The notes beneath the pieces were generated by a model that had not been told where the DNA came from, searched no databases, and saw only the letters and a list, made by a program, of their open reading frames with translations. Positions 5,077-57,400 of a stretch of 64,000 nucleotides of DNA are shown in pieces; positions within the stretch are counted from its first letter, which is position 1, and every line of letters begins with the position of its first letter. The DNA lies in NCBI RefSeq assembly GCF_019059575.1, contig NW_024881701.1:496001-560000 (forward strand), written 5' to 3'. This stretch comes from Amphibalanus amphitrite. Lineage: Eukaryota > Arthropoda > Thecostraca > Balanomorpha > Balanidae. Position numbers and translations under genes: made by a program.

Positions 5077-43686
<38,610 letters not shown>

Positions 43687-45496: not shown

Positions 45497-48400
45497 CTGT
45501 CGGGAGAGAGGGGGTTAGACAGGAGATGGGCACAAGGAAGGGAGAAAATCTAAAAAAAAAATCGTGGTCTGTACACTCCAATGGCGACCAAAATGCATGA
45601 GAAACGTTTAAGTGACTGGGCAGGAAGTTATGTATGGTAGACAATCGGTTACAACAATATACCAGAATTATCCATTCACAATTTAAAACGCGTTAAGTAA
45701 TGGCATCTTTTGAACATTTAACTACCTCTGTCTCCAGCATCCACAAATGCATTCACCGAGCACTAAATCGCTCTGCTCCTCTCCCTCTTAACCCAGTACC
45801 CCGCTCGTGCCCCCTCCCACCGGTACGTACCGGCCGCCTGCAGCGGGTCCTGGTCGCCGCCGCGGCTGTTCAGCTGGGTGATATCCATCCGCGTGTCATC
45901 CAGACCCGCCGCTGAGGCCAGCGGCGCCTGCTGGTCCCCGCCGGACGGCCCGGCGCCGGCGCCCCCCGCCACCGGCTGCAACGCACCACAGCGACATCTT
46001 TAGATGGACGACAGCTGGGGTGGCACGTGGAGCAGCACGGAATGGGTCGGAGCGGTGAGCGACCAAGGCTCATATCTCGTGAAAACATTGCTGAAGATCA
46101 TATTGTATCAAAAATAAGAAGCCAAGAAAAGCGTTCATTACTGCCACAAGTTGACAAATCTTCCCATTTTGTTAAAGAACCACATCACCGCACAGGTGCA
46201 CAAACGGTGCACAAACTTTCCCAGCCTGCCACCCTTAAACATATGACTACAGCACCTCGCCTCCCCTCTGACGCACCTGCGGCGACGGGACGGACTCGGC
46301 GAAGGCGTCGCCGCGCCGGGGCACCATCAGCGTCGGCGTGCTCGGCACGATGCTGTCGCCGTCGTCGAACTGCCCGGTGGCGGTCGAGCCGGCGCCGGCG
46401 GTCGCCGACGCCCCGCCGAACGGCTGCAGGTGGGGCCGGCCGGCCGAGCCAGCGGCGGCGGCGGCCCCCGCGCGGCCGGCCGCCGCACCCTGGCTGGCGT
46501 CCTCCTCCTCAACGTCCCCCACCTCGTCCTCCTCGTCCCCGTCCTCGTCTTCGGGGACGTCCTCCTCCTGACTGATCTCGTCCATGGGCTCGGCGGCGCC
46601 CGAGTCGCCGGCCTCCTCGCCGCGCGGCACGTACTCCACCGTCTGAGGGAGGGAGGAGTGGTGTTAGAACGGTCCGTGCTCCACCGTCTGAGGTAGGCGG
46701 GAAATGGTGTTAGAACGGCACGTACTCCACCGTCTGAGGTAGGGAGGAATGGTGTTAGAACGGTCCGTACCCCACCGTCTGAGGGAGGGAGAAAAGGTGT
46801 TAGAACGGTCCGTACTCCACCGGAGGGAGAAAAGGTGTTAGAACGGTCCGTACTCCACCGGAGGGAGAAAAGGTGTTAGAACGGTCCGTACTTCACCGGA
46901 AGGAGAAAAGGTGTTAGAACGGTCCGTACTCCACCAGAGGGAGAAATGGTGTTAGAACGGTCCGTACTCCACCGGAGGGAGAAATGGTGTTAGAACGGTC
47001 CGTACTCCACCGTCTGAGGAAGGAAGAAATGGTATTAGAACGGTCCGTAATCGACCTCTGAGGGAGGGATGGAATGGTGTTAGAATGGGAGCGAATGCTG
47101 TCTGAGGAGCGCGTACGTCACAGTCTCCAACAAGGGAGACGCTGTTACAACGGTGCGTTCTTCACTGTCTATATGGGAGAAGAAATCACAGTCACATTAT
47201 TTTGGCCTTCGTTCACCCGCCTTGGCGGAGTTCATGCAGCCATTACTGCTGGTAGGATGAGCCTACGACAGCCTCCACTGTCAAATCAAATGAACGGTGA
47301 GCTGACATGGCTGGCCTCTCCTCTCCTAGAAACAAACACACGACCAAGCAGCGTATGTCCTAGGCCTGTATGAGGGCAAAGGCGTCTCGTATCGCTGGTA
47401 AATCGCCGCTTGGGGACTCCCGACGGCACTATTTATAGTGAAAACGTGCTGGTGACCTAGGAAGAAGCTATAACCGTTTGTCGCATGAAGTATGTGGAAT
47501 ATGTCCACATGTGAAGGTCAATAGTACGCTAATACCTAGTACCCTGATATCACACTCCGACCTTTGATGCACGGTGACTCTATCCATTGGTTATCGTTTA
47601 TTGACATTGATCTTCAGTTCATACAAAAGAGCTAAATCCTGTCGGGCTATCCATCGATAGATGCTCTGTTTGGAGATTCGAGATTGAGCGAACGTTGCTT
47701 TGTTTATTGATGAATCCTCGGGCTCCGGCCTGCCGGCGGCGGTGGTCGTCGGGATATTCCCCGTCCCTGCCGACGCGCTGTGACATGTCACCTCGGCGAT
47801 AGGCCCGGCACCAACTCACAGGTCGGCGGACCGGGGTGCTCTCCGACCTCGGGTGTCTGACGGTGAATCCCGAATACTGGCCCGCTCAGGAGGGAGGGAA
47901 AGTTCTGTCGGCAGCGGTCAGAACTCGGGCATTATCCGGCCAGTAGCGGTGGAGGTGGCTGTGCTGTGAAGCTGTGCGATTAGGACGGTCCGACGCGGAC
48001 AGAGGTGACGGAAATTCGATTGAAGTTCAGTGCCAACTACCGCATATTATTAGAAGACATATTATCATATATAGTGTAGTTTCATCAAAGGTGGCTGGCG
48101 TTGGTGGCGTATCCAGCTCGACACCACCAAGTCAGAAAACACCGAGGAAATATTTGCTGAGAGTCCCCGGCCCAGAGACTCGTCCAAAGGAGCGATATCT
48201 ATACTGAGCACACATCAGTTGTCGGGCTGACCGGACGTCAGCCATCACAACCAACGCCGTGCCAAACCGAGCGGCAGTCTCTGCAGAGGTTTGGTAGGTA
48301 CCAGCCGACCATACGCCATGTCCATGACCAGCAGTGGCACAGCCGAGGACCGCGCGATCCCGCTGTTCGCCCTGTCTCCTAAGGAAGGTCCGCAGCTAAT

Positions 48401-51400
48401 GGCGGCGCAGGGCGCGCAGACCGCCGCGCTCCGAGCCTTTGTCGAACGGCTGAACGCTGCCACAGTTACCGGAGACCCGCTGACAGACGAGGAGCTCCAA
48501 CAGACGCACAGAGCGGCACTGAGCGAGTCCCGCCGCGCGTTCAGAGCCGCCGGCGGACGTGGCGAGCCGACCGCCTACCAACAGCTAACGACAGCCCTCA
48601 CAGAGCACTACGGACGCGCGGAGAGCCTAAACCGGCGGCGCCGGGAGCTGGTAGACGGCCGAGCCGCCTCCCAGAGCGCGGCGCTGGCGGCCGCCTGCTG
48701 GGACCAGTACGGGGCCGAGATGCGGCGCGCCGTGGCGAGCCCCGCCGTCACTGAACAGCGGCTCCGTGAACTGCACACCGCTGCCGCCCGGAGAGCGCTA
48801 CAACGCTACGAGCGCGGTCAGATCAGCGCCGGTGGGGCAGCCGCCGCGCCGCGTCAGGAGCTACAGCAGTGGATCGAGGGACGACTGAGCACGTGCCTCG
48901 TCAGGAGCGCGGCCCGGGCGGCGTCCGCCGAGCGGCGCCAGCGCGATCGGGACGCAGCCGCTGCCGAGCAGGCGCGGGCGGAGCGGGAGCGGACCGAGCA
49001 GCGGGAGCGGGAGGAGTCCGACACCACCGCTGCCGCGGAGCTACCATCCCAGCAGGGGGCGGTGCGCCACGCCGATTCGAAGCTAGTTCAAACTCTCGCT
49101 GGCCACCGGGAGGTCACACATTTAGTAGAGAGGGTCATGTTAGAGCATGTAGAACATGTTAAGGAGGCGGTAGTTTCCGTAGTGCCGCGAGCCGAGCGGG
49201 TTTGGCACGAGGCAGCTGAGGGTGTGGCTAAGACCACTCAAACTGTGGCGCGGGCCGTTGGTAGCCTGTTTAGACGGTGAGCAGTCAAAGCGAGAAATAA
49301 ACAGAACACCCTGCAATGGAACGGCTGCCACCTGTCGCAGACAGAACCAGAGGAAATAACCCACCGTTTCCATCAGAAAATGGCTGTGAGCTTACAACAG
49401 TGAATGCTAATGGCTGTGTGGTTATGGCGGTGAATGACAGTCGCTGTCATAAAGACGGTGAAAATTGGATTGAGGGCGAATGAGGCAAAATACATGTGAT
49501 GGATAATAAACCGAGGCCTCTGCTGAATGTAGAGTTGTATGAAGGAATACCATAAAACATGAGATGTTTTCTATGTTTATAATATAAAACACGCTTTCAA
49601 TTTCAATTGAATTACATGCCCATATCTTTATCAAGCAATCCAGCTTACTTTCCAGTCGGTTCGATCCACCTGGTACTGAACAATGGTCATGTCATCACAG
49701 CGCAATTCTGGAAAAGCGGACAAAAGTTTGATGGCAATTCGCCATATTCTCCAGTTAGAAGTTCATCCTTTCTCAATGCTCACAAAACCCTCATGAAGCC
49801 GGAGCAGCCTCCTGCTCTTTCGTGGAATGATGAGTCTTCCCATCTGGTGAGCAGGGAGTAGAGAGCCACACTGCTGGTGCCATTGCCACACGGCCCAATA
49901 ATGGGCCATGCATTCAGCCTCAATATAAGTGACGCGGTTGCCAGTCTAACAAAGACAAAATCTCCTTCAGATAAGGCTGAGCCATCCCCGAGGTACGAGA
50001 ACGGGGGACTATCTTGGCCAGCCAGCTCACATCCTGTTGACAGCTACGAGTACAGTTTGGTGGACTTAACGGTCTTAGTTGTCACCTGTCACCGCCTCGT
50101 GACGTCATCACCACTCAACAAACAGACAGGCGCTCTCAGGAACCCCAGCTTTCTTTATAAACATCATCGAAGGATGCATCCGTCCACAAACATCTGAACG
50201 TATCTGCACCATATATTGTATATTCAAGCGTATTTTAGCACACAAACACCCAACATTTCAACTTTCCGGGACGATCCCCACCTCAAATCAACAAACTCAT
50301 CCTGGTAATCTAAGCATAAGACTATCAATCAACGATGAACACTAACAAACCACTTCATTTGGCGACTGTAGGCCTGATGACACATGGACAGTCTTTCCTG
50401 CTCCGAAGATAATATAAGCGCAGTCACAAGCAGTTCCCCACTCCAAAGCGAGCACGACGGACGGTGGAGCGCTGGGAAGCGCAGATACCGTGCAGCGACT
50501 AAAACATTTGGTTGTGCTGCTGTGTACTGTGTTGTGCTGCAGCTGTGGTAACTCGGTGGAATAGTGGGAAAGCCGACAGTTTTCACCAAATAGTTACCAT
50601 AAGAGAGGAACGCTTGCTCGGCGCTAGGAAATTCATATCAGGAGAAGAAAATCACAAGTGGAGGCGTCCACCGACGACCAGCCTACGCGACAAAGCCCGA
50701 AGTGGACAGATCGCACTAAAAACCAAACAACAAGCATGTCTGACAAGGGTGAGAGCGGAGCCGTTGCCCAAGTGGTCACGAACGTCGGCAAAGTAGCCAC
50801 CAGCGCCACAGTTGAAACGGGCAAGACGGTAGCGCGCACGGCCACCAAGACGGCCATCGCCGGGGTGGACGCGACAGTCGACTCGACAGCACAGGTTGTC
50901 GAAACTGTGACTGCCGTTACTGGGCTCGAAGTGGACATATCAGCCGTACGGGACGCAACCAAAGCAGCCACCGCTGCGGCCGACCAGCTAGTGGAACAGA
51001 CGACGGAAGAGGTCGGCAAAATAGTCACCAACGTGGCTGACGGGGTAGTCGGAGCGACTGCTAGCGCCTTGGACAGCGTGATCGGCAGCTTCTGGAAGTG
51101 AGAGCGGATCGTCGTCCACCGCCAGTGTCGTGGCCTCCATCGGCTGGACGCGTGGCCCGGTGTCGAGAACGGCTTTCAGCAGTAAATTTAGGGAGATGTT
51201 GGACTGCTAATAGCATGTAGAAAAGTAAAGACCGGTTCGTGTTGGATTGTTATATCAGGATCAGCTCGATTGTGATAATTCCGAAGTGAGATGTAATGCA
51301 ATTATTAGAGCCAGATTCGGTGTGCGCCAGTGACTTAATGATATGATACAGAATGGTCAGCAACAATACCAATGCCTTGTGCTAATTTAGCCTACGTATC

Positions 51401-54400
51401 TAATAAGACGCTATAAAAAATTTGCAAAAAAATAAGAGAAAAGGAAGAAACAAAGATATTAACTCGGATGCTGTTCATTGCTTAGTCAACACAGAGCGAA
51501 GATAAGAAGCGCGTATGTGTATGATGAGATCACATCCAAACTAGCCACCTCAGCCTGTTCTTTCCACCGAATATTTACAAGCTGAGGCGCCAAGTAAATT
51601 ACGCAGTAGCACATGCAGCAAATAACTCACACCGGTCACGACGGATACACACACCATAAAAATACCTTATCATCCCTGCATTTAAACAGTGAGTGAAGAG
51701 CTGTCCCACCGAAAACAAACGCCGTTAGTCACAACCGGCATGGCCAGGATTACCTTGATTTACTTCGGTTTTCTTTTTCACTTGCCGATCATCTCACTTT
51801 TCATCATTTCATACCACACATTTTGACTGCTGGATGATGGATTGACATACTTGAAACCGGAAACTTCAGACCAATTGTGTAAAAGATTTAAACCAATAAG
51901 ACAAAGCAGACTTCAGCGCACCAGACGATCGCTGAAACCTGTCGCGCGCCTATTCGAACAGTGGAACCTGCCAACCTCTATGTGAAGCCGTTCCCAAAAC
52001 CACAAGGTTCACTTCGAACACTTCGAACAAGACTCGACATCCTCACAGGTTGAGGGGATCCCCTTAATCGACTCGGGCACACTGTGTGGCCGACCAGACG
52101 CCATCCGGGATTTTACGTGAGCTCATCCAAGGCTTCGTGATGTTACTCGAGACTCATCAATATGTAACTGACCCGAACTAGTAGAGTACATTACTGGTAA
52201 TCATAGCACGATAAAACCGTAAGTAAAGCTATAGATACACAAACGCCATCAATCAATGACAGGACATGTGATATCACCCGCAGCTGATGTCACATTTTCC
52301 TGCTCTGATAAATATGGACTGTTTTCGGGTCAGGCGCGCCCAGCATGCGTTTGCCATGGGCGCCTGGAGGATACCCATAAAAGCGGATGACGCCACCGTC
52401 CTTCAGTCACACGGCGACCCAACGGTCGGGGGGCGCCGAGAGGTGCGTGACCAGACGAAACACCGCGCAGTGGCAGAGACGGTGCGCCGGACTCCCGTTA
52501 TTCTCAAGTGGCAGGGTCAGAGACAGACGACCACTTTCCCCAAGGAATCGGTCACACAACGGCACACTCGGCGCTAAAAACTCTCTGAGAAGAAAAGTAC
52601 AAGTGATACAGCTTCAAAAATCCCACCGAAGGGCTTTCATCCGTAATGAAGCGGAAGCGTCCAGCAAAGTCACCTCAGAATCCCAGCATGTCTGGCAAGG
52701 GTGTGGGTTCGTCGGCCGGCGGAGGGGCTGTGGCCCGGACCATCACACAGGTCAGGCAGAAAGTCACAGATGTCGCATTCGGGGTCAGTAAGACGGCAGT
52801 GCGCACCACCACCAAGGCAGCTAGCTATCCCCTGTCCTGTGAGGTCGAGTTCTCTCAAGCTGGTACGATCCTCCGGAATCAGTACCTATTCCACTTACGT
52901 TCAGTTCGGAAAACACATGTCATTCAGCTGGAAGCTGATTGATGTAGTTACATCGAAAAACGTCATGAAGGCCGCGCTGTCTTCCTCGTCAAAAGCTGGA
53001 CATCCTGAGTACCTACTTCTCGGAATTCTTGCATTAGTTGTAATACTGTTTGTCGAGCATTGATGCCATTTTACTTGCAAAGCTCATTTTCGACAGTCGC
53101 GACTTGTACGAACAATCTGTACAAGTTTTCGGACCTTCCAAAACTTGTACGGATCCTGTCCGTAGTGTCCGTAGTGGTGGCGACGCCCATATCTTAGAGT
53201 GCATAGTCGAGTGTGCATGCAATTGCAAGTTTGATAAGCGCTGCATGTGCATTGCACAAGCGTTGCACCTCATCACCAGGGCCAATTGGCATTTGTGATA
53301 TTCACTACATGAATGCATGAATATAGTTCCCCACTCTCAAGTGAGCACGACGGACGGCGGAGCGCTGGGAAGCGCAGATACCGTGCAGCGACTAAAACAT
53401 TTGGTTGTGCTGCTGTGTACTGTGTTGTGTTGCAGCTGTGGTAACTCGGTGGAATAGTGGGAAAGCCGACAGTTTTCACCAAATAGTTACCATAAGAGAG
53501 GAACGCTTGCTCGGCGCTAGGAAATTTACATCAAGAGAAGAAAATCACACGTGGAAACGTCCACCGACGGCCAGCCTACGAGACAAATCCCAAAGTCGAC
53601 AGATCGCACTGAAAACAAAACAACAAGCATGTCTGACAAGAGTGAGAGCGGAGCCGTTGCCCAGGTGATCACGAACGTCGGCAAAAAAGTAACTACCGTC
53701 GCTGTCGAAACGGGTAAGACGGCAGCGCGCAACGCCCCCAAAACAGCCATCGCTCAGGTGAATATGACGATCGACACGACGGCACAGGTTGTCGAAGCTG
53801 TGACTGCCGTTACTGGGCTCGAAGTGGACATATCAGCCGTACGGGACGCAACCAAAGCAGCCACCGCTGCGGCCGACCAGATAGTGGAACAGACGACCGA
53901 GGAGGTCGGCAAAATAGTCACCAGCGTGGCTGACGGGGTAGTCGGAGCGACTGCCAGCGCCTTCGACAGCGTGATCGGCATCTTCTGGAAGTGATGGCAC
54001 ATCCTGTCTATCGCCCAAGACGGTGCGCGCCGGGGGCGGTTTGAACAGTGAGGTGGGGGGGGGGGGGGGCAACGGGGATTGCGATTAACCTGAAATAACG
54101 CGTGATTATTGCTTAAGCGAATTCCACTTCGCGCTTGTACTTCCTAATAACATTTTAGCACTAACTAACGAAGGTGCTTTGTGGTCGAGATGTCACTGGA
54201 TTCTGGGAAACTGGCAGGGCTGATATTAATAAAATAATTAATGGGGCTCACAAATGAAATCTTTTAATCGATTGACTCTGACAGAATGACTGAAAATATT
54301 ATGAGTCTGACGATGACTGTACATCCTCGCGAAACAGCATACATAGCGAATCACTCCGATGAACATTTAGCAAATAATTCGCTGCGGTCACAACAATCCC

Positions 54401-57400
54401 GTGCTTTCCAGAATCGCATTTTCTTCGACGCAGCTGATAATAAATTCATCCACCGTGACTGGGCAACAGGAAACAATAATGCTCTCACATCAGGTGGCTG
54501 TGTGGAACTGAGATAAGGACAGATTAGAACCCCGGGGGCGGCGTCCCATTGCCGTGCCTCTACTCACGTCATCATCGTCGTTGAGCTCTGTCTCGGCTGC
54601 CGGCTCGTCCTCTGCATCCTCCTCGTAATCGTCCTCCTCCTCCTCTTCTGCCTCCTCGTCGCCCGCCATCTCCTCCTCTTCTTCCTCCGCCTCTTCCTCT
54701 ATCTCCGGTTCCTCGCCGTCGTCTTCCTCCTGTGATACACCGTGTTACACCGTGAGCGAGACATCCTTGGCGACTTAATATGTATAAATAGCGAGACGGT
54801 GAAATAGAAATATAATAATAGTAGCAGCCTGCCATAAACATAAATATGCAATAAGAAGCATCTCCTCTTAGGGTGGTATTTGCGTCGAGTGAAATACTTA
54901 TTTTTAAGCATATTGCTATTTGGAGACTGAGCCGAGGGTACGATAATAATAACTGTAACTAACTAAAACAAAACTTGAGCAGAAAGACGTCGAGCGTTAT
55001 TAGACAGTTTGACGAAATACGAACCATTACTGTGCGACAATCCAAAGATCCCAGCGTTTACCAGAGTCAATCCCTGCGCTCCCCAGACAATTCCTGTTGA
55101 CTCGCCCGATGATCTCAGTCTCAGAGCTCAGCAGAGACAACCCCTGCACTGATCGGATATAATCGCCATATTCACATGATACAATCCCTGCACTCGAACG
55201 AGACAATCCCAGCACTTACCTGCTTCTCGTCATCCGATAAAAGCACGATGATCGGAGAGTCTGCCCCCGACGGAGCCGCGGTAGCGGCCGGGGCGGCAAG
55301 GGCGGCGGCAGCGGCGGTGGCGGCGGCAGCGGGGGCGGGGGCGGCGACAGTCTCCCCAGCAGGAGCGAGGGCGGCGGCTGTCGGCGGCTGGCTGTCCGTT
55401 CCAGAACCACTCTCAGACGCAGTCGATTCCTCTGTGCGAGGACGTTTCACCTGAGGGGTATTTCTGGTCAACTTCAGTCCTTACAAACAGCTAACCGTAT
55501 TTGAAAACGATTTGATATTCACCTCTTCCATCTCCTCTCAAATCTCCTCAAATCTCCTCCACTCTCCTCCCAGGCCCAGCCCTTTTCCTCAGGTCAGTCC
55601 CACCTACACTCGCCCCAGCTGAGCCCCACCATACGTTCTCCTTTCTGTAACCACTTCGCTTCCCAAGTCCACCATCACGCCCCACTCACCGCCTGCACGG
55701 CTGCCTCTCCGGGGGCTGAGCCAGAGCCCGACGCCGCACTGGTGCCCGCCACCACTGCGAACGCCCGCTTCCCCGCCTGCGGAGGCTGCTGCGGCTGCTG
55801 GGACTGCTGTGGCTGCTGGGACTGCTGGGGCGGCTGGGCAGGCTGGCTCGGCTCCTGCTGCTGCTGTGCCGGGCTCTCCGGCGGCGCGCCAGCCGCCGGC
55901 TGGGACTGGACCGGCGCCGCGGCGGCCGCCGGGGCCGCAGCTGTGGCAGTGACCGCAGCGGTCGCAGTGGGGGCGGCAGAGACGGGCGGGACGCGTGGCG
56001 ATGTCTCGGCCGGCGCCGTCTGACTGCGGGGGGTGACGGTGGCCTGGGGCAGTGTCTCGGTGACCTGGGCCGGGGTCGGAGCCACCGTGGCCACAGTCAC
56101 AGTGGAGGTGGAGGCGACCGGCTCGCTGGTCACGCTGCGGAAACAAAGCATGGCGGGGGTAGGGTTATACGTCGGGATACGAAACCCCTAGGACGACAGG
56201 TGGAGGCGACTCAGAAGCGACAGATGGGATGGAGAATCAAAAAGACCAAGCAATACAGTTGTTATTCATATTCAATCACGATGCATCTGCCTGTCCAAAG
56301 CCATCACGTACCACCGCCTGAAAACTTGTCCGCATCGCATTTCTCCACTCACAACTTGGCATCGGGTGTCTCTCCCGTGAGCGTCCTACGCAAACCATCC
56401 AGCACCCCCTCCCTTCCCCTTCATCAACACTATTTCGCCGCCCTACCTGCCGGTGACGCTGGGCGGCACGGTGGCCGTCGTTTTGGCCGGCTGCACGGCC
56501 ATTGGTCGGATGCTGGCGGTGGGCGTGGTGCGACTGGGCGTGGCCGGGCCCGGGTGGGGCGCCGGCAGCTGCGCGGCCCCGCCCGCGCCCCCGCCGCCGG
56601 CCATCGGACGGATGTTGGCGGTCGGCGTGCGGCCCGACTGGTCACCGGCACAGTCGGGGGCCGCCGCCGGCTTGGCCTGCTGCTGAGGGAGGGGGAGGAG
56701 TCAGGTTAACACCCCGCGGGACAGGTCAGAGGACGGCTGGGTTGGGTCTCGTCGTCACACTAACTGCAATACATTCGTTCTTAAAATGTCATATTGCATC
56801 AACACCTCGACCAGACACTGCCTTAGTCACCTATTTGAATCGGGCCAAACATCGATTCCAGTCGCTTACCTGTTTGACGGTCATTTGTTTCTCGAGCGCC
56901 TGCAGCCGTTTCTTGGCCTCGGATAACTCCCGCTCGAGCTGCTGCTGTTTGTTGTCGTACTGAGACTTTAAAGCGGCCACCCGCATCTCTGCCTCGTCCT
57001 GGGCCGCTGAAGACGCGCCCTCTGCGTGGGGAGGGCGAGGTCAGGTCAGGTGAGGGTGGGAGGAGAATGAGAAGCTGTGGCGGGATACAGCTGCTGTGCG
57101 AGATAATGAGCTCGAATCGTAACTAAACAAGACGGTCGTTCAATGGTTTTTGACGAGTTTTTCTCAGTGCTCAGTCTCATCATCGTCCAACTAATAGCCA
57201 AATAATAAGCCAATTAAAATACCAAACCTTTTGCCAACAGTTCTCTGCCCATCCCTTACTTAACCTTGATGAATACTCGTCACCCCGCTTGCGCCCTCCT
57301 CTCCCATCCCTCTCCATCATTCTACCCCTTCCCTGTCCCCCATCCCACCTCTCTACTCTCCCCTCCTCCCTGCGCCGTACCATTGTCGGCTCTCTCCCGC

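Follow-up and report, generated by a model that had tools for sequence, protein, structure and literature searches.

Probable intronless antisense genes in one Tpr intron of Amphibalanus amphitrite: a small tandem family and a candidate atlastin/GBP-type neighbour

When several small frames lie within a single intron of an unrelated gene, are they members of one family, and are they genes at all? The question is raised by a 64,000-nucleotide stretch of the Amphibalanus amphitrite genome (RefSeq assembly GCF_019059575.1, contig NW_024881701.1, positions 496,001 to 560,000, forward strand), hereafter the window, in which positions are counted from the first letter. An oversized intron of the gene Tpr, which is encoded on the minus strand, holds on its plus strand a 320-aa frame (A), two 121-aa frames (B and C), and a partial third copy of the latter (D). 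The reading developed here, to which we give an even chance as a whole, is that B, D, and C form a tandem family and that A is an atlastin/GBP-type protein, all nested antisense in the Tpr intron.

The host is identified as Tpr because two minus-strand open reading frames match the Pfam families PF07926 (E 1.5e-20; frame at 59.8–60.9 kb) and PF25785 (E 1.2e-12; frame at 63.6–64.0 kb). Its structure was modelled approximately, from 19 minus-strand frames that were chosen by eye and joined by splice consensus and reading frame. One of the 18 modelled introns contains the cluster:

46643 to 54567, minus strand: oversized Tpr intron, 7,925 bp (best-scoring splice pair, donor GAC/GTGAGT, acceptor CCTCAG/AC, slashes marking the junctions; frame kept)

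The other 17 measure 143–490 bp. A first-pass annotation, made from the sequence alone, had described a Tpr intron of about 7.9 kb with antisense frames, and splice-consensus chaining in the Pfam-identified host bears this out. It had put the remaining introns at 143–626 bp; they are indeed far shorter than the long one, but our approximate models give the narrower range. Of its four plus-strand frames, A, B, and C exist as such, whereas 52646–53063 is not a single frame. A search of Rfam over 44–64 kb gave nothing at gathering score. B, C, and the partial D make up an intron-nested paralogue cluster, that is, at least two paralogues in one intron of an unrelated host.

The copies and their flanking DNA are arranged as follows:

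50432 to 50735, plus strand: 5′ flank or leader of B, duplicated ahead of C (direct repeat of about 300 bp, 94% identity; 18 of 304 sites differ)
50736 to 51101, plus strand: probable gene B, an intronless 121-aa frame with a predicted hairpin of two amphipathic helices (open reading frame; single-sequence AlphaFold2 (AF2) model; hydrophobic moments)
52376 to 52687, plus strand: upstream region of D, related to those of B and C (DNA alignment against shuffles)
52688 to 52942, plus strand: D, third and most diverged copy, candidate pseudogene (like B and C in the first 40–46 codons only; frame stop at 52942)
53325 to 53628, plus strand: 5′ flank of C, copy of the B flank (direct repeat)
53629 to 53994, plus strand: probable gene C, an intronless 121-aa frame, tandem copy of B (open reading frame; gapless against B over 121 codons)

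B and C had been called paralogues in the first-pass annotation, and their gap-free alignment (121 aa against 121 aa) and the few differences between their flanks confirm it. Over whole frames, nonsynonymous divergence (dN) is 0.093 and synonymous divergence (dS) 0.188, giving an omega of 0.49. D belongs with them through its N-terminal half, where 17 of 40 residues are identical to B and 21 of 40 to C, and its local protein scores are 66 against B (shuffle mean 34.5) and 76 against C (shuffle mean 33.1). It is also the most divergent copy: the proportion of synonymous sites that differ (pS) is 0.52–0.56 against B and C, with a nonsynonymous proportion (pN) of 0.29 beside the pS of 0.52 against C. 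The DNA upstream is related as well, with a B–D score of 88 over 52206–52605 (shuffle maximum 62) and a C–D score of 68 over 52376–52685 (shuffle maximum 58), neither reached by any of 300 shuffles. Past 52826, the DNA of D does not resemble the remainder of B (score 20, reached by 265 of 300 shuffles).

The proposal that 52646–53063 shares an N-terminal half with the 121-aa proteins therefore holds for D, but the same stretch does not form one frame with a membrane anchor. D starts with an ATG at 52688 and stops at 52942, and the hydrophobic tail, which ends at 53063 and peaks at a 19-residue hydropathy of 2.03, lies in a different frame. Several consensus splice models could join the two, none of them favoured, and any such link is putative. 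On sequence grounds, the standing of D as a gene is uncertain, and it is possibly a pseudogene. The idea of a local family within one Tpr intron is thus upheld for B, C, and D, including their related upstream DNA, and not for A.

B and C have not diverged evenly along their length. In the centre (codons 17–60), 29 of 132 sites differ, against 28 of 535 in the remaining codons and the flank (Fisher p 3e-8), with dS 0.41 and dN 0.21 in the centre and dS 0.07 and dN 0.03 in codons 61–121. As synonymous sites rise together with the rest, selection on the protein is insufficient by itself to explain the mosaic. The two full copies that were compared are best read as products of an old duplication whose flank and last half were later patched by gene conversion. 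Were the centre instead to have diverged through diversifying selection, rather than being spared by conversion, its large share of the amino-acid-changing differences (17.5 of 23.5) would fit; dS there exceeds dN, however, and with synonymous sites elevated too, this alternative has only a very slim chance of being right. A broader challenge is that all three copies are unexpressed pseudogenes in decay, two of which have stayed intact by chance. D is disrupted past about codon 46, and codon choice, scored against a reference of 955 Tpr and formin codons, is weak: C does best in its own frame, one reverse frame outscores that of B, and two outscore that of A. In neutral simulations, 45% of runs acquire a stop. 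Runs that keep an open frame and change no more amino acids than B and C do make up 5.1% of all runs (a joint probability of 0.051) and 9.3% of those without a stop. Against decay stand two frames of 121 codons with neither stop nor indel despite a central dS of 0.41, the amphipathic periodicity of both proteins, and the omega of 0.49. We consider such pseudogenes unlikely, and B and C are probably genes.

Two pattern matches, the only kind of transcription signal scanned for in the intron (TATA-like and AATAAA patterns), lie near these frames:

50411 to 50417, plus strand: TATA-like AATATAA, candidate promoter element of B (some 20 bp upstream of the block common to B and C)
54228 to 54233, plus strand: AATAAA, candidate poly(A) signal of C

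The first is a weak candidate, being one of seven TATA-like matches within the intron. An origin of C as a retrocopy was considered, since the homology with B starts near the candidate start site of B. It was dropped because no run of A was seen where the match ends past the stop of C; this was judged by eye, with no search for target-site duplications.

What might B and C do? The single-sequence AF2 model of B consists of helices at residues 3–62 and 69–119 (mean predicted local distance difference test score (pLDDT) 82.9; predicted TM-score (pTM) 0.59), and a comparison of this model with the PDB gave no confident match (best E 1.2). Neither protein has a Pfam match at cut-off, the best being an endoribonuclease family for B (E 0.069) and Phasin_2 for C (E 0.11). 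All four helices are amphipathic, with moment peaks at 95.5–96.5 degrees (shuffle p from 0/500 to 0.01). Helices of the 11-residue lipid-surface type peak at 98.2 degrees and canonical coiled coils at 102.9 degrees; the observed peaks are nearer the former, yet not at the exact value of the 11-residue repeat. The leading guess, drawn from these predicted helices, is that B and C bind lipid or membrane surfaces, with which the below-cut-off Phasin_2 match of C is consistent. Long amphipathic helices rich in alanine, valine, and threonine liken them to perilipin, synuclein, apolipoprotein, and late embryogenesis abundant (LEA) proteins. Unlike those proteins, they match no such family in Pfam up to E 10, a search in which the HMMER filters discard most weak matches; the nearest in kind is Phasin_2.

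The fourth frame, A, lies upstream of the family:

48318 to 49280, plus strand: probable gene A, an intronless 320-aa frame, open from 48231 (open reading frame; GBP_C below threshold; Foldseek GBP1; VIA atlastin-1)
48420 to 48647, plus strand: candidate first helical bundle of A, residues ~35–110 (pairwise test against atlastin-1; likeness to the second bundle)
48660 to 48917, plus strand: candidate second helical bundle of A, residues ~115–200
49062 to 49274, plus strand: predicted C-terminal amphipathic helix of A, residues 249–319 (AF2 helix; hydrophobic moment)
49296 to 49301, plus strand: AATAAA, candidate poly(A) signal of A, 16 bp past the stop (pattern scan; one of four on this strand of the intron)

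Like B and C, A is probably a gene. At 349 codons, its open frame is longer than any that arose when its 1,047 bp were shuffled 300 times (longest 325 codons). Counting against it, 300 shuffles of the whole intron gave a longest open frame of 366 codons, so that frame length alone is no proof.

The first-pass annotation had joined A to the others through a single amphipathic C-terminal module that was copied locally onto different partners, A and D among them. A and B do both end in amphipathic helices. The C-terminal likeness between A and the 121-aa proteins, however, barely exceeds that of shuffles: the local protein score is 37 against B (shuffles 34.7 ± 5.1, p 0.31) and 45 against C (33.9 ± 5.2, p 0.04). 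A is consequently placed outside the family, and a module shared by A and B was rejected on the former score. Upstream DNA of A compared with that of B or D is at shuffle level (A–B reached by 60 of 300 shuffles), and D shares the N-terminal half of the family, not the C-terminal half. Two DNA scores weigh against keeping A apart, namely A–C upstream DNA (score 53, reached by 5 of 300 shuffles) and whole A against whole B (119, with a maximum of 115 in 100 shuffles). The latter is read as an effect of composition, as the alignment is gappy and sets A coding sequence against B upstream and coding sequence. Taken together, the spreading module is very improbable.

We lean slightly towards A being a helical protein of atlastin/GBP-type fold that lacks the GTPase domain, on the basis of weak sequence matches and a predicted structure of five shorter and two long helices (AF2). 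In Pfam, GBP_C is the second of three matches to the full frame (E 0.082) and the sole match to residues 1–203 (E 0.019), both below gathering score. Among PDB entries, Foldseek ranks a GBP1 oligomer first for the model (E 0.043, below the advised threshold), and 9 GBP or atlastin entries are among the best 50 of 126 matches (7e59 and 7e5a are GBP5). VIA places atlastin-1 at ranks 1–7, with 11 atlastin-1 or GBP entries among the best 50 listed, again below the advised threshold. In pairwise tests, residues 112–215 resemble GBP1 (p 0.001) and residues 20–115 atlastin-1 (p 0.003). There is also likeness between the two bundles (p 0.0015). The suggestion that the set belongs to no named family therefore holds for B, C, and D as far as Pfam goes, but A leans towards this fold.

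A number of observations weigh against the assignment. Every Pfam and fold score for A falls short of its own threshold. GBP_C is outscored by eIF3_subunit on the full frame and, on the second bundle, by VbhA, whose 20-residue match (E 0.0007) likewise misses its cut-off. The first-bundle piece has no GBP_C match in Pfam, and its VIA matches are other three-helix proteins and designs. Crossed pairs fail (residues 20–115 against GBP1, p 0.45; residues 112–215 against atlastin-1, p 0.26), while one of six Tpr controls gave p 0.004 against atlastin-1 with a raw score above that of A, another gave p 0.044 against GBP1, and in 1 of 10 shuffles an unrelated family was matched at E 0.024. The registers also conflict: Pfam, VIA, and the GBP1 alignment put the first GBP middle-domain helix near residue 118, and a helix count against the GBP layout of alpha7–11 plus alpha12–13 (PMC9005921) puts it near residue 24. 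One guess from the model that would reconcile the two is a tandem middle domain. All this leaves a substantial, if somewhat smaller than even, chance that A is an orphan alanine/arginine-rich helical protein and no relative of GBP or atlastin, its matches reflecting generic three-helix bundles and coiled coils. Against such an orphan, Pfam, Foldseek, VIA, and two of the four pairwise tests agree on one superfamily, and GBP_C was listed for none of 10 shuffles.

If A is of the atlastin/GBP type, it would be an unusual member. No GTPase domain was matched by Pfam in A and its open upstream extension, or in nine other plus-strand open reading frames around it. Attachment to membranes in this group is by a CaaX motif (some GBPs) or a transmembrane hairpin (atlastin). 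A has neither the motif (it ends in GSLFRR) nor the hairpin (best 19-residue hydropathy 0.55), and has the amphipathic C-terminal helix instead (hydrophobic moment 0.456 at 99 degrees, reached by 0 of 500 shuffles). It would thus resemble the GBP helical domain (alpha7–alpha13) and the three-helix-bundle middle domain of atlastin by fold search and weak sequence likeness, and differ in the missing GTPase domain and perhaps in having two tandem middle-domain-like bundles. The silkworm BmAtlastin-n, an antiviral protein of the atlastin family, is an arthropod case with a coiled-coil middle domain and no transmembrane segments, as proposed for A; it has 770 aa and an intact GTPase domain, whereas A has 320 aa and none (PMC4926086). 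When isolated, the helical domain of human GBP-1 is sufficient to inhibit proliferation (PMC6156764). These cases suggest, by analogy, that A might serve as a scaffold independent of nucleotides, or might partner or compete with atlastin/GBP proteins of full length. A true GTPase-less protein of this kind would mean that the fold is used alone in nature, as with isolated fragments of human GBP-1.

Searches for homologues used A and B as queries (C and D were not searched alone), in collections not chosen for animals. In the protein collection, nothing was found at E ≤ 1 for whole A, for A residues 24–210, or for B (441 candidates). For A, scoring was confined to the candidates with the most words in common (7,998 for the whole protein and 7,992 for residues 24–210), so that relatives may have been crowded out by low-complexity words. 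No relative at E ≤ 1e-3 was found in viral collections (B and A) or prokaryotic genomes (B), which gives no support for a close viral or bacterial origin. As the contig collections were viral and prokaryotic, and the protein collection was not selected for animals, these missing homologues say little about animals. In open-licence literature, as represented by the titles and starts of abstracts of the top-ranked matches, neither Tpr-nested genes nor a natural GTPase-less GBP is described, which is weak evidence.

How might such a cluster have arisen and how might it work? On the reading of a tandem B/D/C family beside an atlastin/GBP-type A, two apparently unrelated intronless genes would have come to sit antisense in one Tpr intron, where B multiplied in tandem into B, D, and C. 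D would have split off first, and ectopic gene conversion would prevent B and C from drifting apart in their flank and last half. The nested genes are assumed to be transcribed from plus-strand promoters of their own. The predicted helical hairpins of B and C, with long amphipathic helices whose moments peak near 96 degrees, would lie on lipid or membrane surfaces in the manner of small proteins of the apolipoprotein, perilipin, or LEA type. In A, a long charged helix and the amphipathic C-terminal helix would accompany the two bundles; being of the atlastin/GBP kind but lacking the GTPase domain, it would function with no nucleotide switch, either as a scaffold at membranes or by pairing or competing with atlastin/GBP proteins of full length.

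The arrangement itself is not new, as precedents are known. The TipE family is clustered in one intron of CG18675, and most GMC oxidoreductases lie in one large intron of flotillin-2 (PMC3240667). Both share with the present cluster the placement of several, or most, family members in a single intron of an unrelated host. The TipE cluster involves another protein family and host, and its nesting is largely conserved across insects; the GMC members are enzymes in yet another host, whereas those described here are helical orphan proteins. B, C, and D illustrate clearly, on a small scale, how an orphan family can expand within a host intron and become homogenised in part.

A regulatory loop between host and guests can be imagined, because human TPR is required for short, intron-poor mRNAs to be exported efficiently (PMC7672458) and the guests are short and intronless. 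In its fullest form, the Tpr intron would be a self-contained membrane-binding module, made up of a GTPase-free, two-bundle A and concertedly evolving lipid-binding hairpins, whose guests depend on Tpr and limit it by antisense transcription. Of all the proposals considered here, this is the most improbable.

A tandem array of 38–46 bp units (46630–47085), in which the splice acceptor and first exon bases have been copied, lies next to the 3′ boundary of the long Tpr intron. Copied acceptors lie near 46688, 46734, 46779, and 47014, and each copy found would encode TV[EG][YH][GV]PF and then a stop; only the last acceptor, at 46643, continues the Tpr frame. The upstream copies could act as decoys that yield truncated Tpr.

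Elsewhere in the window, a formin FH2 domain (PF02181, E 5e-32) is encoded at 41600–42016 on the plus strand, in a gene apparently convergent with Tpr. Ahead of it, a 32-bp tandem repeat of about seven copies (38362–38587, plus strand) runs out of a proline-rich open reading frame. Its consensus units each contain CCGAACCAGGTGAGG, which resembles an exon end with a donor site. This array resembles the copied Tpr acceptor edge, so that two exon–intron edges appear to have turned into tandem arrays in one window. A further repeat, with a 452-bp unit in two tandem copies (81% matches), occupies 363–1270.

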